The position numbers were made by a program, and so were the translations under genes. Shown in pieces: positions 23,239-57,276 of a stretch of DNA of 64,000 bases (positions are counted from its first letter, which is position 1; each line of letters opens with the position of its first letter). Source of the DNA: Reichenbachiella ulvae (lineage in GTDB: Bacteria; Bacteroidota; Bacteroidia; Cytophagales; Cyclobacteriaceae); the NCBI RefSeq assembly GCF_025833875.1, contig NZ_JAOYOD010000001.1:310001-374000 (forward strand), given 5' to 3'. Under the pieces are notes generated by a model, which saw only the letters and a list, made by a program, of their open reading frames with translations, was not told the DNA's origin and did not search any database.

Positions 23239-23296
23239 TTAATCGGAGGAATTAATCATTTATTTATCCCGAATTAATTCCTCAACATTTCATTTG
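23239..23296 (+). promoter_or_regulatory. Operator array A: 11-bp periodic TTAA half-sites and promoter
   Basis: Half-sites start at 23252 (TTAAT), 23263 (TTTAT, degenerate) and 23274 (TTAAT), spaced 11 bp; another TTAAT lies at 23239, 13 bp from the next. A -7 box TTCATTTG (one mismatch to TAnnTTTG) begins at 23289, exactly 15 bp after the start of the last half-site. This spacing is the same as in the arrays before 42023 and 47380. It would control the cytochrome-domain protein. Confidence 0.65.
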
Positions 23297-23352
23297 AGCA
23301 TCAGCTATTTTCCCCATAGCATGAAGGGGATGTTTTGGAATTGAAGTTCATT

Positions 23353-26300
23353 ATGAAATATTATTTACTATATATCCTGATTGTTTGTTTTTATTCTGTT
23401 CAAGCTCAAAATATTGAGTTACCTGTAGAGGTGTTGGGTGCAGAAGGTTCCATAGCGTCAAGAACTTTTGAGTTGACCGAGTCCCAAGCTTCTTCAGTGG
23501 AGTCGCTATGGATGCAAGTGAACAACCTTTCGTACGAGAATAAAGCTTCAATAAGTATTAATGATGGTATATGGATGGAGCTGAATCACGAAAGCGTGGT
23601 TATGCAGTATCAGGAAAAGGCTCGCGGAGGTATGACACATGGGGGATTTAGTACAATTCGATTCAGTATCCCAATCAAAGGCATAGTTGCAGGTAGCAAT
23701 ACGATCCAGTTTCGATTCAATAGATCCGATGGTATTTCTATTGGCTATAGAGTTGTGAAGTTTAATCTATTGGATGCGTCGGGGGCAGGGGTAATAGATG
23801 ATTCTCTATTCGTAGAGGAAGACCCCATGAACTGGACTTCACCTATTGGTTATGATGATGCAGCGTCTATCGCTGCTGGTAAGGATTTATGGGAAAATGC
23901 CGGGCTATGGAGCAACTATCTAAATCCAGATACTGTAGGGAGTTGGTATGGCTATGAACTATTGCCTGCTACACCGATTCAAGCTACTTGTGGGGATTGT
24001 CACGTGAGTAATGGGTATGATCTAGAGTACTTTAGCTATTCCAATGAATCGATTATTGAGCGAGCCAAGTTTCATAAACTCAGTGAGGATGAAGGTAAGA
24101 AACTGGCCGCCTATATCAGAAGCTTGTCATCTGAACCTGAAGGTCCTCAACGTTATGGACGTCCATGGAACCCACCTTATCAACCGGGTCCTGAACTGGC
24201 GGATAAATCTCTGAGCCAATGGGCGGCTGGGGCTGGTTTGGAGGCAATTTTGGATAAGGATGAGGATATGTTGAGTTATATGTTTCCCTCAGGAGTAGAT
24301 AGTTTGTCAGTTGCGGAGTATTTTGACAATGATCGGGTAGAAGACCATACCTTGATGCCGCTAGCGGTGCATCTACCTGACTGGAAACATTGGTTGCCGC
24401 TAGTACACCCTAAAGATGCCTTTGCGATCGATGATTATTATCAGAACCCTACGGTAGATATTCATCCTAAAATTGGGTGGGAGAGAATCAAAAACTATCT
24501 GGATGCTGCGCCAATTGAAAGTCGTAACATGGAAGATTTTAAAAATGAGCTTCATATATTTCATAGACACTTTAGACATTTTTTTGATCAGGCTAGCGGA
24601 GAGGTGAGGCACTGGCGTACTGCAGGGGATGCTATTGCCCGAGGAACTTACAACGAGGTATCTGCACATATTCCTGAAGGAATCCCCGTAGAGATGACAG
24701 TAACTAGTCTGGCTCGTTTACTGGCCGTCAAAAATTTTGAAATCATGAATCTCTATGATCTTCAAGATAAAAACGAATGGTTTGTGATACCAGAAGACTA
24801 TGATGAGCTTACCCCACGTAGATGGCAATGGCTGGGTAGTGATTATAATATTTTCGAGGTACCTCCCCATTTTACCTCCTGCGCTACTAATTCGAATTGC
24901 GATAATTTTATAGGGCAGAGTATCGCTACGGGCAACTATGAATCTACCGCCTGGTATCAGCTCCAATTAGTACTCAATGGTGGTAATGGAAATGTGGGCG
25001 GTAATGACCCTATGGATTGGCAATATCAGCTGAGTTTTATACTAAGAGCCTCCGCCAGCTCGGGTATATACGAGCCAGTTAGACTCTACCATTCTCTCAA
25101 TGCCATGTACCAATTGAGAACTTACGAAAAGCACAAAACGCCTAATAAAAATGGGTTCAGAGCCAGGCAGCAGATGCCGCATTGGTTTTATGGTCTAGGA
25201 GATAGCAATGATTTCTACGGCTTTGCACCTGGTTACTTTTCTGGTCTTTTAGATGAAATCCAGCCAGGGATGAGAAAGTTGTTTTTGGATGCCTTGCTTA
25301 GTCAATTTCTACAAGAAGTCTCCCGCCCGGAGATGAACCTTAGTAGCTGGAATAGAAAGTCCCCCAATGGAGGTTCATATGAACTGGAACCAGCTGACCA
25401 CAGCGAGGCATTGGCCAATATCGAATCACAGATAGGACTATACTACTATGTTGATAAGATGTATTATTTGCTCCCAAAATTTGCAGAAGCTGGAGTGGAT
25501 TGTAGGATAATAGATCAGTTGTCCGACTGGTGTGCCGAGGCATGGCCCAACTATGATTGGGAGCAATTTAAGTCCATTAGTTCAGCGACTGTATTATTGA
25601 AGACCAATGAAAACTTGGCATGTGGGGAATATGCGACTGAGTTTGTGGCTATCGGTGGCAATCAAGGTAGCTCGCCTAGATATGAATGGTGGGTCAATGG
25701 TACTAAAATGAGTACCGATGCTTCGACCTATACAGATTTATCATTGTCGCCAGGGGATCAAGTCACCGTTCATATGACCAGCAACAGAGACTGTGTCGAT
25801 CAGAAGGTCGCCACTGCCCAGTACACTGTGCCATATGACGATTTTGTAGTTAAGGTGAGGAAGAATGGGACTGAATGGACTGAGCAGACGGATATTGAAG
25901 TTTGTAATGGAGATGAAATTGACTTAAAAGTAGAGTTACCCATTGACCCATTGCTATGGCTGGATGCCATGAACGTATCGGATAGCGAATTGACAGAGGG
26001 AGCATTGGTCGATAGTTGGAAGGATCTTTCGGGTAATGGATACAGTATATCTGCCGACCAAGAGGAGTTGTACCCCAGCTATAGTTCTACCGGAATGAAC
26101 GGGTTGCCAGCGGTAATGTTCGGGATGAATGATAATGCCGATGGTTTGCGATTATTCACTACCGAAGAGGATGATTTTATGGAGAATGATTGGACGATGG
26201 TAATAGTCGGTCAGGAGTTGGGTACAGGTCGATGGACAGATGTGATTGGTAACAAGACCGAGAGCAAATATGATGACGGTTGGTTTCTTCGTTTTTCGAA

Positions 26301-28560
26301 AGATGGTAAGTCCGAGATCTCTGCCGGGGGAGCTTACTATGGTGGCAAAACTTATGATTTGCCTTTCGATTTTGTGGCTGTCATGAGCAAATCGGGCAGG
26401 AATGTGACACTAAGCATCAATGGTGAGTATGAACAGTCACTTACCATGGAGGATGGCGAAAATATAACCACAGCCTATGAAATCTTTTTAGGACTTTCGG
26501 ATAAAGGAAATTCGGGTTCTGCGCGTTTTCATAAGGGACCTATTTCCGAACTGATGTTTTTTGATCACGCCATTGATGAGGGAACTCAGCGTCTTATTGA
26601 GGGGTATTTGAGTCAAAAATGGAAATTGGGAGGAGGGCTTCCTGCTTTTCATACTTATTCTAATGGATCTCCTTTGGATATAACATTAGAGGTAGCCCAG
26701 GGGCCTGTAGTTCAACTCAGTGCTGCTGATAATAGTTATTCCTATGTGGTGGATCAGTTCAGCCAAGGTCAGCTATTATTTTTTCAGAATCGTTCAGATT
26801 GCCAAATCGCACAAAAGAGTGTGGAGGTATCCTATGGTATGGATCCATTTGATGTTCCATTGGCGATTAGTTATGATCTTGATGGCTTGGTACAAGGCAA
26901 TGCGACTGAGGTTTATATCCAGGAGGGACAAAATCTAACCTTGACCCTTAATACAACCACAGAGGGATTTCAATGGGAAAGGCCAGATGGGACGCAACTG
27001 GCTGAAGGTGAAATACCAGTTCTTACTGCTATGACCAATGATAGCAACATAGGGAATTGGAAGGCACATATTCTATATGAAGATGTCTGCTACGAAGGAC
27101 TAGAGCGATCCCTGATAATCGAGGTAGTGTATAGCGACTCTCCAGTGCATGTGATCAATGTTCAACGCATCGGGAATGGATCATTGAGCAGTAGTGGGGT
27201 GATACAGGTGCTTAATCAGGATCAGTTCAATTTGAGTGTTTCCTCAGACGCAGGGAATAAACTGATTGCGATTATTTTAGATGGAGTATCTCAGGAGGTG
27301 ACCGACAATTTTGGAGAGGAGTACTTTTATTCCTTGCCGGCTGTCTCTGCTGATCATGAGTTGACTTTTACTTTCGAACCATTGCTTACGCATACTGTAG
27401 AGGTAGTTAGTGAAGGAAATGGAGGTGTTAGTGAATTAGGGCAAGTTTGGGTTTTGGAGGATCGGGACTTGACACTCACATTTACTCCAGATCCATTTGC
27501 CTACTTAGAATCCGTGCTGCTAGATGGTGTCGAGCAGTTGTCAGAAGCTAACGACGGTGAAGAATATGTTCTGACATTGGGAAAAATACATGCTGATTAT
27601 CAGGTTCAGGCAGTATTCAAAGATAAAGTGACATACAATGTGAACCTGATAATCAGCGAAGGTGGAGGTTCCAAGCCTGGAGATGGGACGCATAGAATTG
27701 TCGAGGGTGAGAACTGGTCGGTTTCATTTTATCCATATGATGGATACGATATATCAGATGTGAAATTAGATGGGGTTTCGCTCGGAGTACTCGATGAGCT
27801 ATTGATAGAAAGGATAGCTAGTAATCATGAGATCGAGGTATTCTTCGAAGAACAAGGATTTACCATTGTGTCAACGGCAGGGGATCACGGGACTATTAAT
27901 CCTGAGGGAGCCCATTTTTATCGAATTGGTTCTGAAGTCACTTATACTTTTGAGCCGGAGGCTGGATACGAAATATCGGATGTTCAGATCGATGGCATAT
28001 CCAAAGGAGCAAAGGCGGCATATAAGTTTGTTAATATTAGCTCTGATAGAAGTATACATGTGGAGTTCAAAGAAATCAAGATGTACAGTATTGTGGCGAG
28101 TAGTGGTGCTAATGGTAGCATTTCTCCATCTGGTGAAAGTTGGTTTGAATTGGGTGAATCTGTGAGCTATAGCATCATGCCAGATCTTGGATATGAAATT
28201 TTAGATGTAATGTTAGATGGTATTTCTCAAGGACCTGTAGACAAATTAACTTTTGAATCCATAGATCGTGATCATAGTATTGAAGCTAGTTTCGGTTTGA
28301 TTTTAGGAATCGGCGATGAGGCGAGCCCAATTAGTGTCTATCCTAACCCAAGTACAGGTGATTTTAATCTGAATACGGCTCGGGGGATCAACCAAATAGA
28401 AATTTATGATCTGAATGGACGTAGAGTCGAATTCAGTCATTCATTGGATAACAAACACATAAATGTCCGAGGGATGGATCAGGTTCAGGGAATATTGATT
28501 CTCACCATCCATTTGGATGATGGTGAGATCACAAGAGAAAGAATCATCATTAGCAGATAG
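23353..28560 (+). CDS. Giant secreted protein with cytochrome c motif, LamG-like domain, tandem repeats and T9SS signal
   Basis: 1,735 aa from the ATG at 23353; a TTG 18 bp upstream is also open. The signal peptide ends near VQAQ. An N-terminal beta-rich region (about 20-150) is followed by a heme c attachment motif CGDCH (Cys213-Cys216-His217) within a cytochrome-like segment reaching KKLAAYIRSL. Residues about 300-760 are of unknown family and rich in aromatic residues. An Ig-like region (about 770-850) and a LamG/concanavalin-like domain (about 870-1100) come next. Then there are about five repeats of about 75 aa resembling bacterial InlB/'divergent' repeats (GYEISDVQIDGIS, GYEILDVMLDGIS; about 1270-1650). 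The protein ends with a T9SS sorting domain starting ISVYPNPSTGDF. It is probably surface-exposed or secreted and is the first gene of the PUL. No glycosidase motif was recognised. Confidence 0.85.
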   Translation: MKYYLLYILIVCFYSVQAQNIELPVEVLGAEGSIASRTFELTESQASSVESLWMQVNNLSYENKASISINDGIWMELNHESVVMQYQEKARGGMTHGGFSTIRFSIPIKGIVAGSNTIQFRFNRSDGISIGYRVVKFNLLDASGAGVIDDSLFVEEDPMNWTSPIGYDDAASIAAGKDLWENAGLWSNYLNPDTVGSWYGYELLPATPIQATCGDCHVSNGYDLEYFSYSNESIIERAKFHKLSEDEGKKLAAYIRSLSSEPEGPQRYGRPWNPPYQPGPELADKSLSQWAAGAGLEAILDKDEDMLSYMFPSGVDSLSVAEYFDNDRVEDHTLMPLAVHLPDWKHWLPLVHPKDAFAIDDYYQNPTVDIHPKIGWERIKNYLDAAPIESRNMEDFKNELHIFHRHFRHFFDQASGEVRHWRTAGDAIARGTYNEVSAHIPEGIPVEMTVTSLARLLAVKNFEIMNLYDLQDKNEWFVIPEDYDELTPRRWQWLGSDYNIFEVPPHFTSCATNSNCDNFIGQSIATGNYESTAWYQLQLVLNGGNGNVGGNDPMDWQYQLSFILRASASSGIYEPVRLYHSLNAMYQLRTYEKHKTPNKNGFRARQQMPHWFYGLGDSNDFYGFAPGYFSGLLDEIQPGMRKLFLDALLSQFLQEVSRPEMNLSSWNRKSPNGGSYELEPADHSEALANIESQIGLYYYVDKMYYLLPKFAEAGVDCRIIDQLSDWCAEAWPNYDWEQFKSISSATVLLKTNENLACGEYATEFVAIGGNQGSSPRYEWWVNGTKMSTDASTYTDLSLSPGDQVTVHMTSNRDCVDQKVATAQYTVPYDDFVVKVRKNGTEWTEQTDIEVCNGDEIDLKVELPIDPLLWLDAMNVSDSELTEGALVDSWKDLSGNGYSISADQEELYPSYSSTGMNGLPAVMFGMNDNADGLRLFTTEEDDFMENDWTMVIVGQELGTGRWTDVIGNKTESKYDDGWFLRFSKDGKSEISAGGAYYGGKTYDLPFDFVAVMSKSGRNVTLSINGEYEQSLTMEDGENITTAYEIFLGLSDKGNSGSARFHKGPISELMFFDHAIDEGTQRLIEGYLSQKWKLGGGLPAFHTYSNGSPLDITLEVAQGPVVQLSAADNSYSYVVDQFSQGQLLFFQNRSDCQIAQKSVEVSYGMDPFDVPLAISYDLDGLVQGNATEVYIQEGQNLTLTLNTTTEGFQWERPDGTQLAEGEIPVLTAMTNDSNIGNWKAHILYEDVCYEGLERSLIIEVVYSDSPVHVINVQRIGNGSLSSSGVIQVLNQDQFNLSVSSDAGNKLIAIILDGVSQEVTDNFGEEYFYSLPAVSADHELTFTFEPLLTHTVEVVSEGNGGVSELGQVWVLEDRDLTLTFTPDPFAYLESVLLDGVEQLSEANDGEEYVLTLGKIHADYQVQAVFKDKVTYNVNLIISEGGGSKPGDGTHRIVEGENWSVSFYPYDGYDISDVKLDGVSLGVLDELLIERIASNHEIEVFFEEQGFTIVSTAGDHGTINPEGAHFYRIGSEVTYTFEPEAGYEISDVQIDGISKGAKAAYKFVNISSDRSIHVEFKEIKMYSIVASSGANGSISPSGESWFELGESVSYSIMPDLGYEILDVMLDGISQGPVDKLTFESIDRDHSIEASFGLILGIGDEASPISVYPNPSTGDFNLNTARGINQIEIYDLNGRRVEFSHSLDNKHINVRGMDQVQGILILTIHLDDGEITRERIIISR

Positions 28561-28619
28561 TTTTTATACGATGGATGTAGATAGGAATAAAGAACAGGAA
28601 AAATAATCATTAACGAGAT

Positions 28620-29546: not shown

Positions 29547-29564
29547 TGTTAGGTTGGTTTTTTT

Positions 29565-29595
29565 AAGCATTGAGAGCGGTCTCAATGCTTTTTTA
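29565..29595 (+). terminator. Terminator of the ROK kinase gene
   Basis: A perfect 11-bp stem (29565-29575 with 29580-29590) with a GCGG loop and a T-run. Confidence 0.9.
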
Positions 29596-29599
29596 CTTT

Positions 29600-30189
29600 T
29601 ATTCAAACAGGACATTTCTTCTATTTTCAGAATCATATATGATTTGTTCCTACATCTCGAGTTTTACTTCTCAAATTCAATGTTGTTTCTAAGGATTTAA
29701 TTGCCTCTTTTAGATTGTGTTATTAAGTGAATCATCTTGATTTAATGTCTGCTGAATGGGATCTGAAATTAAGGTTTTATAGGGCAATGAACTACCTTAA
29801 ATAACTATAGTGATGAATGGTATTATATTTTTCAGTGAAGAAATTTATTAGAGCTTAATGCGCCATTAATGAGTGGTTAATGTGCTAGGGGAATTGGATA
29901 AGTGAGGGAAAACTGGCTTTAGACTTTAAGAAAAAAGTGGAAATAAAAAGGCCTATATATACACTTTTGAGAGCTTTTTGTCAGTTTTGTAAACTTCCTA
30001 AACTGCTTTAATTGCTTTTTAATTTGAAATTAAGCTTGCTCCTCTAGGTTTGAAATCACAATTAAAAAACAATTCAGCTGCTCTTCTTTGGAGTCTTTAG
30101 CAAATTAGAATACACCTGAGGTGTTTCGCGAGCATGATTATAAGGACTGAAATAGGTAGGACAGCGAGAACCTTTAACTATTATTATCT
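29600..30189 (+). other. Long leader region before susC-like gene
   Basis: 590 bp without a gene. It contains operator array B (29855-29887) and about 300 bp of AT-rich leader between the array and the SusC start. No riboswitch fold or small ORF was recognised. The long leader suggests post-transcriptional control of SusC, as known for some Bacteroides PULs, but nothing specific is visible. Confidence 0.5.
29855..29887 (+). promoter_or_regulatory. Operator array B: three 11-bp TTAAT repeats
   Basis: TTAATGCGCCA, TTAATGAGTGG and TTAATGTGCTA follow each other without gaps at 29855, 29866 and 29877. A fourth, degenerate copy (TTTAT) lies one period upstream at 29844. No clear TAnnTTTG box is found 15 bp after the last start; TTG occurs at 29894. 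The array is 300 bp upstream of the SusC gene. Confidence 0.65.
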
Positions 30190-33100
30190 ATGAAAATATC
30201 TATACGGAAACTGAGTTTTCTAACAAGGGTATTCTGGATGTGTTTATTGTTGTCCGCAATGGTATTCTCTCCAGGATTGGCGCTACCCAGCAACAAGGAG
30301 GTGAAAGATGTCCGAGTGACTGGTAAGGTAACTGATGAGGCAGGAGAGGGACTGCCTGGCGCATCTGTTTTGGTAAAGGGTACGACCCAGGGTACAATTA
30401 CAGATTTAAATGGTGAATTTAGCCTAGAAGTACCGGACGATGCGGTCCTAGTAGTATCCTTTATTGGATATCAAACCAAAGAGGTTGCAACTGCAGGTCG
30501 TACTAGTTTTGATGTGATGTTGGAGACTGATGTAGATCAACTCGATGAAGTAGTAGTGGTTGGCTACTCTACTGTCAAAAAACAAAGTTTAACTTCTGCA
30601 GTAGCAGTGGTGGACAATGAGGCCATTCAAACTACAACCAATTCCAGTTTAGCTCAAAAGCTACAAGGTAAAGTGGCAGGTCTTCAGATTAGACAACAAA
30701 GTGGTCAGCCTGGGGTATTCGATACCGATATCAATATTAGAGGTTTTGGTAATCCGATCTATGTCATAGACGGGATTCGTAGAGAAGGTAAAGGAGAGTT
30801 CCAACAATTAAATGCCAATGATATTGAAAGTATCACGGTATTGAAAGATGCTTCGGCAGCCGTTTATGGACTGGGTGCCGCCAACGGGGTTATTTTGGTG
30901 ACTACTAAGAAAGGTCAAAAAGGAGCTCCAAAGGTGAATTTTGGGATGAACTTGGGTGTGCTTAGACCTACTAATGTGCCCAAAATGGCATCTGCAAGTC
31001 AGTATATTGAAATGGATAATGATGCCTTTATCTATCAAAGAGGGACAGATGGCACTCCCAAATACACTCAAGAGGAGGTCGCTAAGTGGCAAGCAGGGAA
31101 TGAGCCTGGCTATCAAAGTACAGATTGGTATGACGAAACGATGAAAGAACAGGCTATCTATCAACAATATGATGTATCTGTATCAGGTGGAGCAGATAGA
31201 ATTAGCTATTATATGGGATTAGAATATACCAATGAAAATGGTCTATTGCAGAGCAATGATATGGGGTACGAGCGGTACAACTTACGTTCCAATATTACGG
31301 CACAAGTTACGGACAATTTGGAGGCTCAGTTGTTGCTGGGATCGCGTGTGGACGCAACAGATCAACCAGGCACTAGTTTCTTCGGCATCTTCAAAGGGAC
31401 TCGAGTATCCTTACCGATCGATCAGCCTTATGCTAATGATAACCCGGATTACCTGACCCCAATCTATTTGGATCAAAATCCAGTGGCTTTTGCAGAAAGA
31501 GATGTGACTGGTTACAACGAGGATAGAACACAAAGCTTACAATCTTCTTTGTCTTTGAAATATACTGTTCCTAGTGTTGAGGGACTTTCTTTTAAAGGTT
31601 TAGCTTCTTATGATTTTAATAACTATCAGGGTAAAAACTTGAGCAAACCTTATTCGCTCTATACCTATGATGAAACTACAGATTTGTATAATGCAGTAAA
31701 ATACAGAGATGGTTCCGGTTTTATTCAGCAAAGATCCAGGCTCAACCAGTACGTGACTTTTCAAGGATATATCAATTACGATAAAAAGTTCGGAACCAAC
31801 CACAATTTGAAAACAGTATTGGTTTACGAACAGAACATTAGCAAGCGTGATGACTTCAGGGTTAGAAGATACTACGACGCATATTATACCAAGGATGTTC
31901 TAAAATTTGCCGGTCTTACACATGAAAGTGACTCGGATCCAAATCAGGAAGCTGATGTTTCATATATTGGACGACTGGATTACTCCTATGCCGACAAATA
32001 CCTCTTTGAGGTGGCTGCTAGATATATGGGATCGTATAGATACGCTCCATCCAATAGATGGGGGCTGTTTCCGATGGCTTCAGTAGGCTGGAGGATTTCA
32101 GAGGAGAATTTTATCAAAGACAATATTCCAGTTTTATCTAATTTGAAAATTAGAGGATCATATGGAATCGTGGGTCAGCCTTCTGGCAATGCCTTTCAAT
32201 ATGTTGAAGGATTTGCATTGGGTAGTGGAGGATCCTATGAATTCGTAGAAGGTTCTCAGGTGGCAGGAGTTTCTGCACCAGCGCCAGCTAACGCAAAGCT
32301 GTCGTGGCAGACTGCTACGACAGCTGACATTGGAATCGACATAGGCTTATTTGAGGATAAAGTTACTCTAGTGTCAGACGTTTATCAAAGGACCTTAGAA
32401 GGTATTCCTGCTTATCGAAGCATTTCTTTGCCAGATACCTATGGTGGACAATTGCCTCAGGAAAACCTTAATAGTAACATGACTAGAGGTTTTGAAATTG
32501 GGATTGGTCACAAGAACAACATAGGAAAGTTATATTATAATATATCCGGTAACTACAGCATTTCACGTACTATGAAGCTACATGTAGAAGGGGAGACTTT
32601 TACAAACAGTTATTCGCAATGGAGGAATCAGAGCGGGGATCGCTGGGAAGGTATTGTTTGGGCTCAGGATTATATCGGTCAGTTTCAGGATGACGAAGAT
32701 ATGCGAAATAGTCCATTACAAAATGGAAGAGATGGCAACATAACTAGGGCACTTCCAGGTGATTTGAAATATAGAGATGTAAATGGTGATGGGGTAATTA
32801 ATGGTGATGATGCGTCTCCTATTCTGTCTAATGCGACACCAAGGTCACAATATGGATTGAATTTAGATTTGAGATGGAATGGGTTTGATTTTAATATGTT
32901 GTGGCAAGGTCAATCTGGTCATTCGATCAAGTTTAATGAGGTATATGGGACAATATTTGCCTTCAAAGGAAATACTCCAGAGTACTTTTATGATAGATGG
33001 CATCAGGCAGATCCATACAATCCTGATAGCGAATGGATAGCTGGTGAATATCCTGCTTCCAGACAAATCTCTGATATGCCAGGCATGACCTATACCGAAA

Positions 33101-33366
33101 GTAGCATGTGGAGGAGAGATGCTTCGTATGTAAGATTGAAGAGTATTCAATTGGGCTATACTTTTAATAATGAAGTGATGTCGAGAGTAGGTATTTCTTC
33201 TTTAAGGTTGTATGCTTCGGGCTTTAACCTGATCACTATTGCAGATCCATGGGTCAAGGCTCATGACCCGGAGAGAACTAATAATGGTCCAGGGTTAAGC
33301 TATAATGCTGGGTTTGGATATCCACTATCCAAAACTTACACGATGGGACTAAGTGTTAATTTCTAA
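30190..33366 (+). CDS. SusC/RagA-type TonB-linked outer membrane receptor
   Basis: 1,058 aa, full length. A signal peptide (about 1-32) and a carboxypeptidase-like domain (about 40-115, GKVTDEAGEGLPGASVLVKG) are followed by the TonB box region DQLDEVVVVGYSTVKK. The plug domain has DINIRGFGNPIYVIDG and ITVLKDASAAVYGLGAANG, and a large beta-barrel ends in the typical aromatic C terminus LSVNF. With the SusD protein it imports oligosaccharides across the outer membrane using TonB. It is the first gene of the susC-susD-DUF3823-GH92-GH99-like operon. Confidence 0.97.
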   Translation: MKISIRKLSFLTRVFWMCLLLSAMVFSPGLALPSNKEVKDVRVTGKVTDEAGEGLPGASVLVKGTTQGTITDLNGEFSLEVPDDAVLVVSFIGYQTKEVATAGRTSFDVMLETDVDQLDEVVVVGYSTVKKQSLTSAVAVVDNEAIQTTTNSSLAQKLQGKVAGLQIRQQSGQPGVFDTDINIRGFGNPIYVIDGIRREGKGEFQQLNANDIESITVLKDASAAVYGLGAANGVILVTTKKGQKGAPKVNFGMNLGVLRPTNVPKMASASQYIEMDNDAFIYQRGTDGTPKYTQEEVAKWQAGNEPGYQSTDWYDETMKEQAIYQQYDVSVSGGADRISYYMGLEYTNENGLLQSNDMGYERYNLRSNITAQVTDNLEAQLLLGSRVDATDQPGTSFFGIFKGTRVSLPIDQPYANDNPDYLTPIYLDQNPVAFAERDVTGYNEDRTQSLQSSLSLKYTVPSVEGLSFKGLASYDFNNYQGKNLSKPYSLYTYDETTDLYNAVKYRDGSGFIQQRSRLNQYVTFQGYINYDKKFGTNHNLKTVLVYEQNISKRDDFRVRRYYDAYYTKDVLKFAGLTHESDSDPNQEADVSYIGRLDYSYADKYLFEVAARYMGSYRYAPSNRWGLFPMASVGWRISEENFIKDNIPVLSNLKIRGSYGIVGQPSGNAFQYVEGFALGSGGSYEFVEGSQVAGVSAPAPANAKLSWQTATTADIGIDIGLFEDKVTLVSDVYQRTLEGIPAYRSISLPDTYGGQLPQENLNSNMTRGFEIGIGHKNNIGKLYYNISGNYSISRTMKLHVEGETFTNSYSQWRNQSGDRWEGIVWAQDYIGQFQDDEDMRNSPLQNGRDGNITRALPGDLKYRDVNGDGVINGDDASPILSNATPRSQYGLNLDLRWNGFDFNMLWQGQSGHSIKFNEVYGTIFAFKGNTPEYFYDRWHQADPYNPDSEWIAGEYPASRQISDMPGMTYTESSMWRRDASYVRLKSIQLGYTFNNEVMSRVGISSLRLYASGFNLITIADPWVKAHDPERTNNGPGLSYNAGFGYPLSKTYTMGLSVNF

Positions 33367-33383
33367 TTGAAAATTGTAAAGAC

Positions 33384-35339
33384 ATGAAGAGTTATAAATA
33401 TATAGCGCTAATGTTGGTGTCTCTGGTGATGGCCGTAGGGTGTCATGAGGTACTTGACATTGAGCCACAGGATAAGATTACAGCACAGGATTTGTTTTCA
33501 GATCCAGCAGGAACTGAATTGTACATGGCAGATCTATATTACAGATTGCCAATGGAAGATTTGAACTATTATGCTAAAAATAACCGAGGAGGAGGATTCG
33601 AAGTTAACTACGGTGGGCCAAATAATGCCGGTGAGGTGCAGGCCATGTTGACACCTTGGGCTGTCCATAGTAGAAGAAATATTTTTATCGATGGCAACCG
33701 ATTGAAATGGTGGAAAGTCGAGGATAGCGAAGTAAATGACAATAAAAAGGATGCATCATTTACACCTTGGACATTGATTAGAAATGTGAATGCTTTTATT
33801 GAAATAGTTCCGGATCTACCAGTTGATGATCAGACTAAAACGCAGTATAATGGAGAAGCCCATTTTATTCGTGCATTTGCTTATTTTGGATTGGCCAAAA
33901 GATATGGTGGAGTACCGATAATCACTGAATCACAGGATTTTGAAGGAGATCCAGAGGCACTATTGGTGGCTAGAAATACAGAGCAAGAAACTTGGGATTT
34001 TATATTATCTGAATGTGATATGGCAGCAACTAATTTGGAAGGAATAGATGATCCAAATTATAGAAGGGCTACCAAATGGGCTGCATTAGCTTTGAAAAGT
34101 AGAGTGGCTTTGTATGCAGCGTCTGTTGCTAAATTTGATGATAAGTTGGATTTGGTTGGCCCAGCAGTAGATCAAGGCTTGGTAGGTATTCCTAGTTCAG
34201 CGGCTGGAGGATACTATCAGCAGTGTATCGATGCTGGTGAGGAACTGATCAATAGTGGTCAATTTTCGCTCTATCAGGCTAATCCAGCAAGTGCAGAAGA
34301 GGCAGCAGAGAACTATCGAGCCATGTTCGAAAACCCAAATTTGGCTATGGGAACGGAGGCCATTTTGATTAAAGGGAAGTCCTCTGCAGGTGACTACTTG
34401 GCTAATAATTATGATATTTGGTTCAATCCACATCAAACAAGAAATGGATGGCCACATCCTGGTAGATATTGTCCTACTCTGGATTTGGTGGATATGTATG
34501 AGAGTTATACATCTGGTGGTACCAGCGCACCTTTGGTGACGACAAGTGATGGGGATGTTAGTAACTATTTAGGGTATGATCCAGCACGAGATTATCTCAA
34601 GTTTGATCATCCAATGGATATATTCCAAGGCAAGGATGCTAGGTTATTTGGTTCAGTGATTTTGCCCGGAATGGAATGGAAAGGAGTAGAGATTGTTTAT
34701 CAAAACGGATTCATCAAACCAGATGGCGAATTTGTTACCGACACTCAGGATAGTTATGAGCTAGACGGGGTTACCTACTATACTTACGGAGCAGAAACTT
34801 CAGCCGGATATTCAGGATTTGATCCTACTGGAGAAAATCACTCGGCGACTGGTTTTGGCTTAAAGAAATTTTTGAGTCTAGATCCTGTTGTACCAGCATG
34901 GAATCAGAGTTTTACGGATTTTATGGAACTAAGATATGCAGAAGTGTTGCTAGACTATGCAGAGGCATACGCCGAAAGTGGACTCGGTACTCCAGAGACT
35001 GCCGGTATGGCACTGAATGCGCTAAGACAAAGAGCAGGACATACTAACACTATAGCTGTAACAGTCGAAACCGTAAAAAGAGAAAGGTTGGTAGAACTTG
35101 CCTTTGAAAACAAAGGATACTGGGATCTAATCAGACGTAGAGAGTTTCATGAACAATTTGATGATAGGAACAAACATGCCTTAGTGCCTGTCTTGGATCT
35201 TAGAGAGAATCCACCCAAGCACATCTTTGTGCGCAAAGAGGTGAGCAGCACTACGTCTCAGACTTTTAGACACAGAGAGTACTATAGACCTATCGATAAC
35301 ATTGGTCTGAATCAATTGATGCAAAACCCTGAATGGTAA
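33384..35339 (+). CDS. SusD/RagB-type surface glycan-binding lipoprotein
   Basis: 651 aa. The lipoprotein signal ends at MAVGC (Cys20), followed by HEVLDIEPQDKITAQDLFSD, typical of SusD. The N-terminal TPR-like part contains EAHFIRAFAYFGLAKRYGGVPI, and the C-terminal part LRYAEVLLDYAEAYAESG and ALNALRQRAGH, then RERLVELAFENKGYWDLIRR. It caps the SusC barrel and binds glycan at the cell surface. It begins 17 bp after susC. It is somewhat longer than the usual 500-600 residues. Confidence 0.97.
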   Translation: MKSYKYIALMLVSLVMAVGCHEVLDIEPQDKITAQDLFSDPAGTELYMADLYYRLPMEDLNYYAKNNRGGGFEVNYGGPNNAGEVQAMLTPWAVHSRRNIFIDGNRLKWWKVEDSEVNDNKKDASFTPWTLIRNVNAFIEIVPDLPVDDQTKTQYNGEAHFIRAFAYFGLAKRYGGVPIITESQDFEGDPEALLVARNTEQETWDFILSECDMAATNLEGIDDPNYRRATKWAALALKSRVALYAASVAKFDDKLDLVGPAVDQGLVGIPSSAAGGYYQQCIDAGEELINSGQFSLYQANPASAEEAAENYRAMFENPNLAMGTEAILIKGKSSAGDYLANNYDIWFNPHQTRNGWPHPGRYCPTLDLVDMYESYTSGGTSAPLVTTSDGDVSNYLGYDPARDYLKFDHPMDIFQGKDARLFGSVILPGMEWKGVEIVYQNGFIKPDGEFVTDTQDSYELDGVTYYTYGAETSAGYSGFDPTGENHSATGFGLKKFLSLDPVVPAWNQSFTDFMELRYAEVLLDYAEAYAESGLGTPETAGMALNALRQRAGHTNTIAVTVETVKRERLVELAFENKGYWDLIRRREFHEQFDDRNKHALVPVLDLRENPPKHIFVRKEVSSTTSQTFRHREYYRPIDNIGLNQLMQNPEW

Positions 35340-35345
35340 TTGAAT

Positions 35346-36101: not shown

Positions 36102-36125
36102 TATAAAGTTTAGTAGTTCATATGG

Positions 36126-41914: not shown

Positions 41915-41992
41915 TTAACCCTAGTTTAATGCTGATTTAACTGCCTGTTAAGTGGCTTTTAACTTACTATTAATTACCCCTAGATAGGTTGC
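41915..41992 (+). promoter_or_regulatory. Operator array C: six 11-bp TTAA repeats and -7 box
   Basis: Six consecutive half-sites begin at 41915, 41926, 41937, 41948, 41959 and 41970. They read TTAAC, TTAAT, TTAAC, TTAAG, TTAAC and TTAAT, each followed by six variable bases. A -7 box TAGGTTGC starts at 41985, 15 bp after the last half-site start. The ATG of the downstream gene is at 42023. This is the longest and clearest array in the window. Confidence 0.8.
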
Positions 41993-42022: not shown

Positions 42023-43318
42023 ATGAAAAACAAAATTTTACTTTTTATTGTGACAGTGGGATTTGGCCTTTCGGCACAAGCACAAACTACTGTTTGGAAT
42101 CCAGCAGCCAATGAGGCTTCAACTGGGAATTGGAACGAAGAGGCAAATTGGACGGCTGGTATCCCAGGAGCCAGTGGAGGAAAGGCAGTCTTTAATGTTC
42201 CAGATGCGGCTCCTGCATTGGTTACTGATGCTCAATCAGTGTTTCAGATTGTTGCAGGGGATAATGGTGACGGTGGTGAAATCATCGTACAAGACGGAGG
42301 TAGTATCACCATGGGAGATGTTTGGAGTGGTGTAGGCTATAATACCAATGCAATTCTAACGGTAGAAAAAGGTGGTGAAGTAACGTTTGGTCAGCACGCA
42401 TGGATAGGCTTTTTGCCAGAGTCAGAAGGAACGGTTAATATTAATGGAGGAACAATACATGTTGTTCAAATGACCGGTCTTGGCTGGGAAGGTGGTGTTG
42501 GTATTGTTAATATCACCTCTGGGCTTTTTGACTTGGCTAACATCAATGCCACTGACATGAAATCGATAGGCGAAGGTTCTTATATAGATATATCAGGAGA
42601 TGGTATGATGACCATCAATGGTAACAGACTTGCACATACGGGTGAGGATGGGGTAGACTATGATGATCAATTGGCAGAGTTTATCACAAACGAAAGAATA
42701 ATTGCACATGGTGGTAGTGTAGCTCCTAACTATTGGTTTGATGAAGAGTCGGCAGAAACCAAGGTGATTGCTCCAACGATCATTAGTTCTACTATGCCAG
42801 AGGATGCTTCGATTGAGGTGCCTAGCGATTCTGATATTGTGATCTCTTTTACAAGAGCAATGGATGCTACTAGTGTTTCCGAAAATTTGACAATCACTCC
42901 AGAAATTCCTAATCAGCAGTTGTCCTGGTCAGAGGACGGATCTATCTTGACAGTGTCAGGGGATTTAGCAGAGGGCATCACTTATGCGGTTTCCTTGGCT
43001 AAAACAGCTGTGGATATGTATGGATTCGAAGTAGCTTTTGAGGAGTCTTTTACTTTTATCGTAGAAGGAGATATTGTAATGGAATCAGCTACTTCTCCGG
43101 AGATTACATTGACAATGTATCCTAATCCAGCTTCAGATTTCATTTCATTCGATGGCAAGCCAGTATCTAAAGTGGAGATTTACAGTGCAAGTGGACAATT
43201 GATGATTAAATCTAGAAATGTGACTAATATCAATATCCAATCACTCAATAGAGGACATTATCTGGTAAAGGCTGTAGTGGATGAAACTGCTGTAACCAGA
43301 AGGCTGATTGTAAAATAA
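42023..43318 (+). CDS. Secreted beta-solenoid/Ig-like protein with T9SS signal
   Basis: 431 aa. A signal peptide ends at SAQAQ. Residues about 22-240 form a glycine-rich beta-helix like that of autotransporter-type repeats (GNWNEEANWTAGIPG, VGYNTNAILTVEKGGEV, EGTVNINGGTIHV). An Ig-like domain of the Big_5 type follows (about 255-350, PTIISSTMPEDASIEVPSDS). A T9SS sorting domain ends it (LTMYPNPASDFI to RLIVK). No catalytic residues are recognised, and it may bind or display glycans. It is strongly placed under the six-copy operator array, and a small lipoprotein gene follows. Confidence 0.82.
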   Translation: MKNKILLFIVTVGFGLSAQAQTTVWNPAANEASTGNWNEEANWTAGIPGASGGKAVFNVPDAAPALVTDAQSVFQIVAGDNGDGGEIIVQDGGSITMGDVWSGVGYNTNAILTVEKGGEVTFGQHAWIGFLPESEGTVNINGGTIHVVQMTGLGWEGGVGIVNITSGLFDLANINATDMKSIGEGSYIDISGDGMMTINGNRLAHTGEDGVDYDDQLAEFITNERIIAHGGSVAPNYWFDEESAETKVIAPTIISSTMPEDASIEVPSDSDIVISFTRAMDATSVSENLTITPEIPNQQLSWSEDGSILTVSGDLAEGITYAVSLAKTAVDMYGFEVAFEESFTFIVEGDIVMESATSPEITLTMYPNPASDFISFDGKPVSKVEIYSASGQLMIKSRNVTNINIQSLNRGHYLVKAVVDETAVTRRLIVK

Positions 43319-46803: not shown

Positions 46804-47039
46804 AATTAAAATGCCGTTCAAACTGTTAGAGACAGATTAGGGCGGATACCCAAAAATACATAAAATGTAAAATAGAAGCGTAAATAAATTTGACTCCTAA
46901 TTGTTGGACTAATTTTGGTAGTTGACATTTCAAATTTTTAGTAAGGATTACTTTTTTGACTCGATTTTTAACCCGTATTTTTAGTTAATACCTCTTGTAT
47001 GGTTGGTTTGAACATATATTCAAATTAAATCAACCGAGC

Positions 47040-47072
47040 TTAATTGCCGATTAATTTGAGCTTAACCTTTAT
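47040..47072 (+). promoter_or_regulatory. Operator array D: three 11-bp TTAA repeats
   Basis: TTAATTGCCGA, TTAATTTGAGC and TTAACCTTTAT follow each other at 47040, 47051 and 47062. A loose -7-like TTGATTG starts at 47078. The array lies 237 bp upstream of the minus-strand regulator gene but is oriented toward the plus-strand GH92 gene, 224 bp upstream of array E. Confidence 0.62.
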
Positions 47073-47263: not shown

Positions 47264-47308
47264 TTAATCTGAATTTAACTCTCAATTAATCCTTTCAAAA
47301 TACTTTGC
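47264..47308 (+). promoter_or_regulatory. Operator array E: three 11-bp TTAA repeats and -7 box
   Basis: TTAATCTGAAT, TTAACTCTCAA and TTAATCCTTTC begin at 47264, 47275 and 47286. TACTTTGC starts at 47301, exactly 15 bp after the last half-site, as in array C. The second GH92 gene starts 71 bp further at 47380. Confidence 0.75.
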
Positions 47309-47379
47309 GAATAAGATTTTGATGCATTCTAACTAGGGATATTTAGAAGCGCACTAGAAATATAAAGGCAAAGAGAATA

Positions 47380-49668
47380 ATGAAAGAAAAAATTGCAAAA
47401 TGGGGATTGATATCAATATTGTTATTATTGATTATCGTGGCATATATCCCCAAATCAGATACTCAGAAGAAAGAAGATATTAGTCCAGTTGATCATGTCA
47501 ATCCATATATAGGAAACATAAGCCATCTATTGGTACCTACTTTTCCTACCATTCATTTACCCAATAGTATGCTTCGTGTGTATCCTGAAAGACGCGACTT
47601 TACCGGAGATAGATTGAGCGGACTACCCCTGGTAGTAACTGGACATAGGAGAAGCTCAGCATTTAATCTGAGTCCGGTGCAAAAATCGAAATTTCGTCCA
47701 GTTATAGATTATAGTTATGATAATGAATGCATAAGGCCATATGAGTATCAAGTTTATTTGGATGAAGAGAATATAAAAGTAGATTACTCATTGTCCCATC
47801 AATCGGGTATGTATTCCTTGAAATTTGAAAATGAGGATTCTATTTCATTGATAGTTAATTCTAGAAATGGAGCTATTAATTGGAGCATGGACGCAATATC
47901 TGGACATCAATTAATCGAAAATGGGACTAAAATCTACCTGTATTTATTGCCAGAGCGAATGCCTAGTTCAGTGCAGACCTTGAGAAAAGAGGTCTTAAAA
48001 GAAGGATACTCCAGCTCGGGCAACAATGCTTGTTTGGTATTGAAGTTTCCAGTGGAATCCGGAGAATTGAATTTACGATACGGAATTTCATTTATCAGTA
48101 CGGAACAAGCCAAACGTAATCTCGAACGTGAAATTATAGATAAGGATATAGCTACTATCAAATCTGAAGGTAAGCAAAAGTGGAGTCAGGCACTTGGAAA
48201 AATTGAGGTTGAAGGCACGGATGCAGATGCGCTATCTGTGTTTTATACTTCTTTGTATAGAACATTCGAGAGACCAATTTGTTTGTCGGAGGATGGGAGG
48301 TACTATAGTGCATTTGATGATCAGGTGCATGAGGACAATGGGCGTCCGTTTTATACCGACGACTGGATATGGGATTCTTACAGAGCACATCACCCGCTCA
48401 ATGCTCTTATAGATACTAAGAAAGAAGAGGATATTTTAAATTCATTTGTATTGATGGCTGAGCAAATGGATCGTCTATGGATGCCGACTTTTCCTGAAGT
48501 AAGTGGAGATAGTAGACGAATGAATTCAAATCATGGAGTAGCAGCTGTTTTGGATGCACATCGCAAAGGGCTAAAGAATTTTGATATAGAAAAAGCGTAT
48601 TTAGCAGCCAAAGGAGCAATAACAGAAAAAACATTGGCTCCCTGGTCAGGTGTGCCAGCTGGAAGATTGGATGCTTTCTACAAAGAGAACGGCTATTTTC
48701 CTGCTTTGCCAGATGGGGTAGAGGAGACAGAACCAGAGGTGCATAGCTTTGAAAGCAGACAGCCTGTGGCAGTTACACTAGGGACATCCTATGACGAATG
48801 GTGCCTTTCGCAATTGGCCTATGAATTAGACGAAATGGAGGATTACGAATTGTTTGTCAATCACTCATATAATTATCGGAACCTTTACAATAGTGAGACA
48901 ATGTTTTTTCACCCAAAAGACGAACAGGGAAGGTTTATAACCCCATTTGATTACAAATTTTCTGGCGGAATGGGAGCACGTAAATTCTATGGCGAAAACA
49001 ACGCATGGGTATACCGATGGGATGTCCAACACAATGTGGAAGATCTAATCGAACTGATGGGTGGAACAGAGACATTCATTACTAATCTTGATCAGACATT
49101 TAATGAACCCCTTGGCCGTAGCAAATTCGATTTTTATGCACAATTGCCAGATCATACTGGCAATGTTGGGCAATTTTCAATGGCTAATGAACCCTCTTTG
49201 CACATACCATATTTGTACAACTATGCAGGTCAGCCATGGAAAACACAGAAAAGAATTAGAACCTTATTAGATCAATGGTTTAGAAATGATTTGATGGGGG
49301 TCCCTGGAGACGAAGATGGCGGGGGTATGACTTCATTTGTAGTTTTTTCTCAGCTTGGGTTTTATCCCGTTACCCCAGGATTACCTATATATAATATTGG
49401 TTCTCCGGTGTTTGAAGAGGCTAAAATCAATTTGCCCAATGGAAACACATTTGTAATAAGTGCCGAAAACTATGATCCTGAACATAAGTTTATCCAGTCA
49501 GCAACCTTGAATGGAGAGGTTTTGGATCGTCCCTGGATCACTCACGAGGAGGTCATAAAAGGAGGAGAGTTAAAAGTAGTGATGGGCATGAACGCAAATA
49601 AAAAATGGGCTGCAGATCTGAAAAATGTACCACCATCTGGATTGACCAATACAGCCACTTTGCAATAG
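47380..49668 (+). CDS. Divergent GH92-family protein with N-terminal membrane anchor
   Basis: 762 aa. A hydrophobic helix (about 9-23) without a lipobox or clear cleavage site anchors it. The GH92 fold is recognisable: HVNPYIGN at the N terminus, DDWIWDSYRAHHPLNALI, YGENNAWVYRWDVQHNV with the conserved Glu, and PGDEDGGGMTSFVVFSQLGFYPV. However, the glycine-rich GTGGxGHTFPGA segment of canonical GH92 is replaced by NISHLLVPTFPTIHLPNSML. It may therefore have changed substrate specificity (subsite -1) or form a distinct subfamily. It heads an operon with a GH99-like gene and two transporters, under array E. Confidence 0.88.
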   Translation: MKEKIAKWGLISILLLLIIVAYIPKSDTQKKEDISPVDHVNPYIGNISHLLVPTFPTIHLPNSMLRVYPERRDFTGDRLSGLPLVVTGHRRSSAFNLSPVQKSKFRPVIDYSYDNECIRPYEYQVYLDEENIKVDYSLSHQSGMYSLKFENEDSISLIVNSRNGAINWSMDAISGHQLIENGTKIYLYLLPERMPSSVQTLRKEVLKEGYSSSGNNACLVLKFPVESGELNLRYGISFISTEQAKRNLEREIIDKDIATIKSEGKQKWSQALGKIEVEGTDADALSVFYTSLYRTFERPICLSEDGRYYSAFDDQVHEDNGRPFYTDDWIWDSYRAHHPLNALIDTKKEEDILNSFVLMAEQMDRLWMPTFPEVSGDSRRMNSNHGVAAVLDAHRKGLKNFDIEKAYLAAKGAITEKTLAPWSGVPAGRLDAFYKENGYFPALPDGVEETEPEVHSFESRQPVAVTLGTSYDEWCLSQLAYELDEMEDYELFVNHSYNYRNLYNSETMFFHPKDEQGRFITPFDYKFSGGMGARKFYGENNAWVYRWDVQHNVEDLIELMGGTETFITNLDQTFNEPLGRSKFDFYAQLPDHTGNVGQFSMANEPSLHIPYLYNYAGQPWKTQKRIRTLLDQWFRNDLMGVPGDEDGGGMTSFVVFSQLGFYPVTPGLPIYNIGSPVFEEAKINLPNGNTFVISAENYDPEHKFIQSATLNGEVLDRPWITHEEVIKGGELKVVMGMNANKKWAADLKNVPPSGLTNTATLQ

Positions 49669-49695
49669 CTTAAAATAGAGATAATTAGAAATAAG

Positions 49696-50994
49696 ATGAA
49701 AAAAAGGACAAAGAGCTTTTTGTGTTTAATTGTTGTTTTTCAAGCAGTGATTTTTCATTCCCAGGCTCAACTAAAGCACAATATAGAACCTCGCTATTCA
49801 TCCTATGAAGGATTGGTAATGGCTGGATATCAGGGTTGGTTCAGAACCCCAAAGGATGGATCAGGTAGTAGTTGGGTTCATTATGGAGATAATGGGAAAT
49901 TTGACAAAGATCATAATACAATAGATTTTTGGCCGGATGTATCTGACTATCCAAGAACCTATGATACGGAGTTTCTGCAGGAAGATGGAACCGAAGCAAA
50001 GGTTTTTAGCTCAATAGATAAAAGTACAACTGACTTGCATTTTCAATGGATGAAGGAGTATGGTGTAAGTGGTGTCTTTATGCAAAGATTTTTTAATGTG
50101 GCAAAGAAATATGAGGACAAGGGAAAATCTTCAGATATAATTTTAAAAAATGCCAGCTTGTCCGCTGAAAAGTATGATCGAGCGTTTGCCGTAATGTATG
50201 ATTTGTCTGGATTAAATCCGAAATCTGATGATTGTTCTGCTGTGATTGAAGATTGGAAGATGCTCGTGGATGAATTGAAGGTGACTCAAAGTAAAAATTA
50301 TCTTAATCATAATAAAAAACCGTTAGTAGCTATATGGGGGTTGGGATTTCCAGATAGACCCTATGATATTAGGGATATTGGAATCAATCGTTTGATCGAT
50401 TTCTTAAAAAATGACCCTGAATATGGAGGGTGCGCCGTAATGTTAGGTGTGCCTACTTATTTTCGTGAACTCGATAAGGATTGTCTGCCTGATCCTTATC
50501 TCCATGAAGTTATTCGTTCGGCAGACATTGTTTTGCCCTGGATGGTTCAGCGATTTACGCCATTATTGCATCAGGATGAATTGAGGTATCGCGATCATGT
50601 GATAGCTGATATTAGATGGTGCCAAGAAAATAATGTAGACTATGTGCCCTTGGCATACCCTGGGTTTAGTTGGCACAATTTGTCAAAAAATAACCCTGGT
50701 TTGGCTCGTCATACCAGCTATGGTGCTATTCCGAGATTAGGAGGTGAGTTTTATTGGGATTTGCTCTATAATTCGATACAGGCAGGGGCTAGTATGATTT
50801 ATGTAGCCATGTTCGACGAAATAGATGAAGGTACAGCCATTATACCTGTATTAGACAGTCCACCGAATAGTGAGGAAGCACAGTTTGTAGGCAATGATGG
50901 AGTGGATCCTTATCATTACTTGAGGTTAACCGGATTGGCTGGTCAAATGCTGAGAAAGGAAATACCGCTTCAAGCGGAAATGCCTAAGAATTGA
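49696..50994 (+). CDS. GH71/GH99-like glycosidase, single domain
   Basis: 432 aa. A signal peptide ends near FHSQAQ. The rest is one catalytic domain with VMAGYQGWF (about residues 42-50), VSGVFMQRFFNV, AYPGFSWHNLS and YVAMFDEIDEGTAII (about 369-383). These are the same landmarks as in the proteins at 38544 and 57512. No T9SS domain is present, so it is probably periplasmic and trims imported oligosaccharides. It lies 27 bp after the divergent GH92. Confidence 0.85.
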   Translation: MKKRTKSFLCLIVVFQAVIFHSQAQLKHNIEPRYSSYEGLVMAGYQGWFRTPKDGSGSSWVHYGDNGKFDKDHNTIDFWPDVSDYPRTYDTEFLQEDGTEAKVFSSIDKSTTDLHFQWMKEYGVSGVFMQRFFNVAKKYEDKGKSSDIILKNASLSAEKYDRAFAVMYDLSGLNPKSDDCSAVIEDWKMLVDELKVTQSKNYLNHNKKPLVAIWGLGFPDRPYDIRDIGINRLIDFLKNDPEYGGCAVMLGVPTYFRELDKDCLPDPYLHEVIRSADIVLPWMVQRFTPLLHQDELRYRDHVIADIRWCQENNVDYVPLAYPGFSWHNLSKNNPGLARHTSYGAIPRLGGEFYWDLLYNSIQAGASMIYVAMFDEIDEGTAIIPVLDSPPNSEEAQFVGNDGVDPYHYLRLTGLAGQMLRKEIPLQAEMPKN

Positions 50995-51047
50995 TGATTG
51001 AAATATTATATAATTACTTAAACAATATTTGATTTAATAACAGAATA

Positions 51048-52475: not shown

Positions 52476-52484
52476 AACTCAAAG

Positions 52485-53819: not shown

Positions 53820-53875
53820 CGATTAACGAAAGGGTCAAATCAATAGGGTTAGACTTTAAAACATTCAAACACAAT

Positions 53876-55150: not shown

Positions 55151-55151
55151 T

Positions 55152-56180: not shown

Positions 56181-56202
56181 TTGGTATTTATTAAAAAATA
56201 AA

Positions 56203-56235
56203 AGCCATCCCAAACTCGATTGGGATGGCTTTTTA
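56203..56235. terminator. Bidirectional terminator between convergent genes
   Basis: A perfect 10-bp stem (56203-56212 with 56221-56230) with an 8-base loop, an A-tract before and T-run after. It serves both the plus-strand operon and the minus-strand DoxX-like gene. Confidence 0.9.
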
Positions 56236-56243
56236 ATTTTTAT

Positions 56244-57173
56244 TCAATGACTTGAACTGAATTCTTTTGATTTCTGTATTCTGGTGGATTGAAGATACTC
56301 ACTGGTAGGTTTTTTTGATAAGAAAGGAAGTTTGAAATATTCCCTGATGGGATATATTAATATGAAAGGCAGTAAGCCATGCGGTATCCTTATTAAAACC
56401 TCAAAGGTCCATTGGTGTAAAATAGGAAACAGAAATTCTGGATAGAAATTAGCCCAAAGCCTAGCGGCTGCTGTTGCCACACCCCAGAATGTAGCGTAGG
56501 TCAAAGCGTATTTTGCAAAGTTGGGGACGAAAAGTAGAATTGCCAGACCCAAATCAATCCATCCGAATGTAGCCAGCAGGGTTTTGGCTATCGGTTCTGT
56601 TACTCCAAGGATTCTAATTACCATTCCAACGAAGTCTCCCGGTTGGGGATAGAAGCCCACGGCGTATAGCCCATGACAGGTGAAAGTCAATGCAATCGCA
56701 AATTTCATATATAATGTCAGTTGTTTTTTGCTGACGCTTTCATTCAATATCAGGTAGAGGAATAATGGACACCCAAACTGGGTACTGTATTCTAAGAGTT
56801 GTCCTATTTGATAAAATTTTTCTTTGGAGTAGAGCATAGCTAGGCCAAAGAGCATAGTGCTACCCATGATGAGCAACCATCGATAAGGTTTGAGACTGAC
56901 CCTGTGTGCAAGTAGAGCAAAGATGCCTAGGCAAGTATATACAACGCCCAGTGTGATTTTGTAATAATTGATGAAAACATCGACACCTTCGGAGGTGGCG
57001 TATTCGGTCCAGGTCATTCCTGTTATCACAGGGACTATCCCAGATAATAAGGATTCATCCCATAGTAAGGTGCGAAGAGGTACATCCCAAAATAAATGTT
57101 GCCATCCTCGACCGACGAAAACCAAAAAAGTACAGAATTGTAGGAGTCGGGTGATATTTCTTTTGTTGTCCAT
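56244..57173 (-). CDS. DoxX-like multispanning membrane protein
   Basis: 309 aa from the ATG at 57173 (an upstream TTG at 57185 is possible). About eight or nine hydrophobic helices are seen. RLLQFCTFLVFVGRGWQHLF and HGLYAVGFYPQPGDFVGM (conserved Gly-His-Gly-like pattern) resemble the DoxX/DoxD superfamily. The biochemical role is unknown. It is the only minus-strand gene of the PUL apart from the regulator and may not belong to the mannan pathway. Confidence 0.7.
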   Translation of the reverse strand: MDNKRNITRLLQFCTFLVFVGRGWQHLFWDVPLRTLLWDESLLSGIVPVITGMTWTEYATSEGVDVFINYYKITLGVVYTCLGIFALLAHRVSLKPYRWLLIMGSTMLFGLAMLYSKEKFYQIGQLLEYSTQFGCPLFLYLILNESVSKKQLTLYMKFAIALTFTCHGLYAVGFYPQPGDFVGMVIRILGVTEPIAKTLLATFGWIDLGLAILLFVPNFAKYALTYATFWGVATAAARLWANFYPEFLFPILHQWTFEVLIRIPHGLLPFILIYPIREYFKLPFLSKKPTSEYLQSTRIQKSKEFSSSH

Positions 57174-57220
57174 GATTAATAGCAATTTGTTCTCAAAAAA
57201 AAAACTGAAAGTGGGCGCAA

Positions 57221-57276
57221 TTAATTCGTTTTTAATGCCCGCTTAAGCTCAGATTAATTATCGGATTAGATACTTG
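57221..57276 (+). promoter_or_regulatory. Operator array F: four 11-bp TTAA repeats and candidate -7 box
   Basis: TTAATTCGTTT, TTAATGCCCGC, TTAAGCTCAGA and TTAATTATCGG begin at 57221, 57232, 57243 and 57254. A TACTTG box begins at 57271, 17 bp after the last half-site, 2 bp further than in arrays A, C and E. The downstream gene starts at 57512. Confidence 0.7.

Follow-up and report, generated by a model that had tools for sequence, protein, structure and literature searches.

Polysaccharide utilization loci (PULs) can be governed by hybrid two-component regulators, single chains with a sensor on the outside and a DNA-binding part on the inside, encoded next to SusC/D genes. ToxR, TcpP and CadC, in turn, are membrane-bound winged-helix activators, active while tethered, in which an N-terminal, cytosolic DNA-binding part is followed by a membrane helix and an outside domain, to our knowledge with no BTAD. 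At the operator level, SARP activators recognize directly repeated sites spaced 11 or 22 bp apart, with 8 bp between the final site and the -10 element (PMC10936776, in the part of its text available), and TTAA-N7-TTAA is known, from an equally partial source, as the CtrA site. The main Bacteroidota promoter carries TAnnTTTG at -7 and TTTG near -33 (PMC7366714, available text). The subject of this work is a window of Reichenbachiella ulvae DNA, that is, the whole stretch of 64,000 nucleotides analysed (C1:310001-374000 of its genome, G000), in which a PUL harbours arrays of TTAA half-sites repeated every 11 bp. An earlier note had taken these arrays to mark a PUL-wide regulon and had suggested the SARP domain encoded in the same cluster for binding tests. 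Such a regulon, with this SARP-like protein as its likely regulator, finds good support in the clustering and conservation of the arrays, their co-occurrence with the regulator gene and their promoter geometry. We consider it highly probable that the arrays are operators of this regulator, a putative membrane-spanning one-component activator.

Re-scanning of the window recovered all six arrays previously listed, at the positions and with the half-site counts given for them: 23252-23280 (three half-sites, the middle one being the single reported TTTA), 29855-29883 (three exact half-sites, with an in-phase TTTA ahead at 29844), 41915-41976 (six), 47037-47065 (three; listed at 47040, a name kept here), 47264-47292 (three) and 57221-57260 (four). 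Overlooked in that list were an array of three half-sites at 30008-30036, which lies between 29855 and the SusC gene and closer to the latter than 29855 does, and two arrays just past the window (C1:374198 and C1:386413, or 64198 and 76413 on the scale of the window); a sulfatase gene follows each of the two. The strict 11-bp period is borne out by 10 exact window matches to TTAAN7TTAAN7TTAA, where 100 dinucleotide shuffles average 0.02; a pattern shortened to a period of 10 bp has no match in the window. The whole genome (5.56 Mb) contains 15 overlapping matches, 12 of which fall within 47 kb (C1:339855-386438) and make up eight separate arrays, or nine with the TTTA-bearing 23252. Arrays are hence not equally frequent at random positions, and the statement that none occurs between housekeeping genes comes close to the truth, since only three matches lie outside the cluster; two of these (C1:1586494 and C1:4953616) are palindromes or close to it. 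The base 3' of TTAA, described as mostly T or C, is T or C in the arrays of this genome but also G; across 25 oriented arrays (those of 76 with a clear promoter box on one strand), A accounts for 0 to 4%.

The AT-richness of TTAA and the location of the arrays at promoters might suggest that they are simply AT-rich promoter elements, or the work of chance, with no dedicated regulator, and the match at C1:4953616, outside the cluster, also has a TAnnTTTG box with 5/6 positions matched. Yet elements of this kind should occur at promoters genome-wide, instead of placing 12 of 15 matches in one cluster, and the shuffles, the 10-bp control and the genomes lacking the regulator (see below) concur in making this explanation so improbable that it can be discarded. 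C1:4102899, with a perfect box, was set aside on the assumption of chance; the next gene is glycerophosphodiesterase-like, as read from its translation.

The association between arrays and regulator extends well beyond R. ulvae. Relatives of the regulator are present in 62 of 390 genomes of the same family, and in 29 relative loci, for which 1.5 kb was fetched per side, an exact array lies within 1.5 kb of the regulator gene in 20 cases, with no arrays at periods of 8-10 or 12-16 bp. The nine loci without an exact array comprise one cut by a contig end, three with a one-mismatch array and two with pairs whose third site is poorer; in the remaining three, which differ in the recognition helix, no array appears even if two mismatches are allowed. 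Across 23 neighbourhoods, each some 20 to 64 kb long and with that of R. ulvae among them, 42 TTAA triples are found at 11 bp and two in total at the remaining periods from 7 to 21, with seven more at the 22-bp harmonic; in 80 named Bacteroidota loci 75 have the 11-bp period and every other period in that range accounts for 0 to 5, although the loci are related and the two sets share genomes, so that the counts are not independent. The 11-bp phase is thus conserved in relatives. Exact arrays number 68, spread over 47 loci of the named 80; 31 are near the regulator gene, and 56 have the start of a match to one of the window cluster's PUL genes (SusC 23, GH92 24, GH99-like 6) no more than 600 bp away, compared with a mean of 5.4 and a maximum of 12 for random positions in the same loci (200 draws). 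In Marinoscillum furvescens (G007; L122), arrays precede the orthologous Big_5 gene, the GH92 gene and the regulator, and the Big_5 promoter has six half-sites in both species. When three orthologous promoters are aligned, TTAA columns are identical in 48/48 cases and other columns in 41/84, a difference that speaks against mere AT-richness but is biased, because the arrays were chosen by TTAA; the retention of copy number and phase is the telling part of this comparison. The arrays at 47040 and 47264, between the regulator and GH92 genes, are 224 bp apart, as are those of Marinoscillum.

Array-bearing regulators share the recognition helix A[RK]NN[RL][NS]VN, whereas a distant clade of kelch-SARP proteins (about 25% identical) has KVKNSRG in an alignment of 16 of its 20 regulators. 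Alignment A2 holds 19 selected regulators and alignment A3 46 rows of 52, without L136, L146, L159, L162 (stop codon), L164 and L183. A tree built from 100 cytosolic domains requires at least 14 changes between presence and absence of arrays. A strict rule by which the helix entails an array was rejected, as many helix-bearing named loci have no exact array.

The position of the arrays relative to the promoter provides a further line of evidence. Since TTAA is its own reverse complement, the direction of an array must be read from the box, and TAnnTTTG was therefore scored at every offset from the start of the last TTAA, on both strands. In a set of 35 arrays, offset 15 holds 16/70 boxes of five or six matching positions, offset 23 has seven and the others at most two; in an overlapping set of 76 arrays, sharing genomes with the first, offset 15 holds 25/152 (10 of them perfect) and the others 0 to 6, bar offsets 14 and 23. 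If a 7-bp half-site is assumed, offset 15 translates into an 8-bp gap, equal to the published SARP distance, and if the box is assumed to end at -7 the last two repeats would span -40 to -19 from the predicted start site, the same place as the afs box in the available part of its description. Among the arrays of R. ulvae the only perfect box is TAGGTTTG (30045-30052), after array 30008 and ahead of SusC. Array 23252 is followed by TTCATTTG (5/6, 23289-23296), array 41915 by TAGGTTGC (4/6, 41985-41992) and array 47264, ahead of GH92, by TACTTTGC (4/6, 47301-47308), all on the plus strand; the boxes of 29855 are poor (1/6 and 3/6) and those of 57221 weak on either strand (4/6 and 3/6). The assertion that all arrays point in the plus direction is probably wrong, for 47040 fits the minus strand better, with TTAATTTG (5/6) at 47028-47021 against 3/6 on the plus strand. 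This box faces the regulator gene, as does its counterpart in M. furvescens, and autoregulation through array 47040 is therefore likely.

The last spacing, by contrast with the box distance, seems to vary between lineages, albeit on small numbers. In the 28 of the 80 loci assigned to a Bacteroidales-type group from record titles, TTAA pairs with a good box at offset 15 number eight at 12 bp (in L135, L138, L139, L141, L143, L147 and L150), five at 11 bp and 0 or 1 at each remaining period from 8 to 15, and four of the eight 12-bp pairs precede SusC (L138, L143, L147 and L150). The other 52 loci have 20 such pairs at 11 bp, two at 12, 10 at 15 and 0 to 4 elsewhere.

Genomes and loci without the regulator supply the complementary control. 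In 14 of the 328 regulator-free genomes, 0 to 7 matches were found in each, and no two of them lay less than 80 kb apart on one contig; 17 of the 62 regulator-bearing genomes have 3 to 17 each among the matches listed. Ten GH92 loci from six regulator-free genomes (drawn from 19 of the 328, with 1.5 kb per side) contain no TTAA triple at 11 bp and one pair, and 20 loci of 20 kb from the distant clade likewise contain no such triple. These results bear on the possibility that another OmpR/PhoB-type response regulator, CtrA- or PhoP-like and encoded elsewhere, binds the arrays, the kelch-SARP protein being a mere neighbour. The shared TTAA-N7-TTAA site would suit such a protein, but the arrays accompany the kelch-SARP gene across genera, are absent both from GH92 loci without that gene and from the clade with a different helix, and appear to keep the published SARP spacing from the promoter (PMC10936776, available text), so that we deem this alternative unlikely.

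Seven distant-clade loci (L104, L107, L112, L113, L116, L117 and L119) share, in an anchored search, a promoter-like stretch with ATTT every 11 bp followed by a perfect TACTTTTG box, which is perhaps the clade's own operator or perhaps plain orthology. Likewise, further tight groups of TTAA arrays occur, among the matches listed, away from the regulator gene in two Chryseolinea-like genomes (G163:C1:57425, 59627, 7654509 and 7658867; G182:C8:638431 and 639197), and these may perhaps represent a second regulon.

The regulator gene (44254-46803, minus strand, ATG at 46803) encodes 849 residues that are predicted to form, in order, a signal peptide, a LamG-like domain, a kelch propeller, a membrane helix (545-569), a linker of some 40 disordered residues and an OmpR-type winged helix followed by BTAD, which is the SARP fold. 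Whole-length fold searches were topped by kelch and sialidase chains and gave no information about the DNA-binding part, for which a separate search was informative. A whole-protein Pfam scan detected the kelch repeats and no receiver, kinase or AraC-type domain, in agreement with the earlier view that this is neither a hybrid two-component nor an extracytoplasmic function (ECF) sigma/anti-sigma system. The length of the linker between membrane helix and DNA-binding part would permit a variant mechanism, with the same operators and protein, in which glycan-triggered regulated proteolysis frees the SARP domain to act as a free dimer. The tethered function of ToxR, TcpP and CadC weighs against such release, and we hold it to be a tenable but distinctly less likely course of events than activation from the membrane. 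In the R. ulvae genome the only match to the BTAD profile (PF03704) is a partial one at C1:2229273-2229458, in a 752-aa open frame. None of the seven other sampled genomes from the genus contains the regulator, and the cluster may therefore have been gained by transfer.

Several observations temper the assignment of the arrays to this regulator. Genome-wide match counts overlap between regulator-bearing and regulator-free genomes, so the case rests on placement and not on number. No exact array is found in 33 of the 80 named loci, most of them with an array-type recognition helix, which shows that the helix is not sufficient; several of these loci carry degenerate arrays before SusC. In the set of 76 arrays, offsets 14 (16 boxes) and 23 (10) are elevated too, and boxes of 5-6/6 accompany just four of the nine R. 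ulvae arrays (23252, 30008, 47040 on the minus strand, and 64198), the rest reaching 4 and 29855 reaching 3. Finally, the winged helix and BTAD are weak in Pfam, the former falling below the cut-off.

Taking the arrays as operators of the tethered SARP protein, a plausible sequence of events would be as follows. The LamG-like domain and kelch propeller, outside the inner membrane, would sense a mannan-derived glycan, and the cytosolic SARP domain, connected to them by a single membrane-spanning helix, would bind TTAA half-sites repeated in tandem at every helical turn. Of these repeats, the two nearest the promoter, at about -40 to -19, would cover the site of the -33 element. The regulator could thus draw RNA polymerase, along with the main sigma factor, to promoters that combine a TAnnTTTG -7 box with a poor -33 element, in a way similar to the sigma adaptation of AfsR, where the bound regulator stands over this element. 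This would turn on the operons that encode the secreted proteins, SusC/D, GH92 and the sulfatases, and probably the regulator gene as well. Whether this can be generalized to a Bacteroidota-wide class of PUL regulators, in which a tethered SARP reads an outside mannan glycan and bridges sigma to TTAA arrays, half-site number (3 to 6) tunes strength and the last spacing in Bacteroidales-type members is 12 bp, we regard as an even bet, because of the overlap of genome-wide counts with the controls and the few cases behind the 12-bp variant.

The probable targets in the window, all on the plus strand, are a large secreted protein with a type IX secretion system (T9SS) sorting tail (23335-28560), a SusC-like TonB-dependent transporter (30190-33366) followed by a SusD-like gene (33384-35339), a secreted protein with a Big_5 domain and T9SS tail (42023-43318), a GH92 enzyme (47380-49668) followed by a GH99-like gene (49696-50994; below the Pfam cut-off), and a 2181-aa secreted protein with a metallophosphatase domain and T9SS tail (57513-64000, continuing beyond the window). 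Array 57221 is flanked by this last gene and by a minus-strand gene (56244-57185) oriented away from it, whose translation reads as a multi-pass membrane protein and finds no Pfam or NCBIfam family match. By Pfam, the window holds SusC, SusD, two GH92 genes, the GH99-like gene, two transporters and a ROK protein, and the region past it three sulfatases, another ROK protein and two further genes for GH92. The cluster extends over C1:374001-391126 (L016, L017), with sulfatases, a GH92 pair, Gfo/Idh/MocA oxidoreductases and two arrays. Because of its GH92 genes, the substrate would be alpha-mannan. A recently described PUL for the C6-sulfated alpha-1,3-mannan of diatoms combines GH92, sulfatases and GH195, a distant kin of GH99 (PMC13063451, available text), which makes a sulfated mannan plausible here, as a fair guess and no more.

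If the proposed mechanism holds, a single protein would connect an outside glycan to RNA polymerase with neither phosphorelay nor sigma cascade, the DNA code of its operators could be read from genomes as regulons that include mannan-use secreted proteins of unknown role, and the SARP mechanism of actinomycete antibiotic control would extend to carbohydrate sensing in another phylum. The searched literature, outside which most subscription papers and preprints fall, yielded no paper linking SARP with polysaccharide utilization, and neither "Bacteroid" nor "transmembrane" occurs in the available part of a SARP review (PMC10972967); within these bounds, what appears to be new is the TTAA half-site, together with an architecture that spans the membrane and its deployment in PULs. 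The operator as such is less novel than the earlier note supposed. Its classification as an undescribed type was rejected on account of the AfsR operator (PMC10936776) and the CtrA site, as available in part, given that 11-bp direct repeats are of the SARP/OmpR kind and TTAA-N7-TTAA is a CtrA site.

Comparison with the systems introduced above places the regulator between several of them. With the hybrid two-component PUL regulators it has in common a single chain with a putative sensor outside and a predicted DNA-binding part inside, but their histidine kinase, receiver and AraC-type domains were not found in it. Relative to ToxR, TcpP and CadC the order is reversed, the DNA-binding part being C-terminal. 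CtrA, an OmpR-type response regulator of Alphaproteobacteria, matches the arrays in half-site and 11-bp period, as far as its partial source goes, but has two half-sites where the arrays have three to six, and a receiver domain that was not found here. The closest likeness is to SARP proteins such as AfsR and EmbR, with which the regulator shares the predicted OmpR-type winged helix followed by BTAD and, at the level of sequence, directly repeated sites with a period of 11 or 22 bp. SARP activators, however, belong to actinomycetes and antibiotic clusters, and usually bear the SARP domain at the N terminus with extra domains after it, whereas in these Bacteroidota PULs it is C-terminal, behind a predicted membrane helix and putatively outside LamG-like and kelch domains, and the half-site is TTAA. 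On its predicted folds, the regulator is thus a SARP-domain protein that would act like a SARP, and not a classical SARP.
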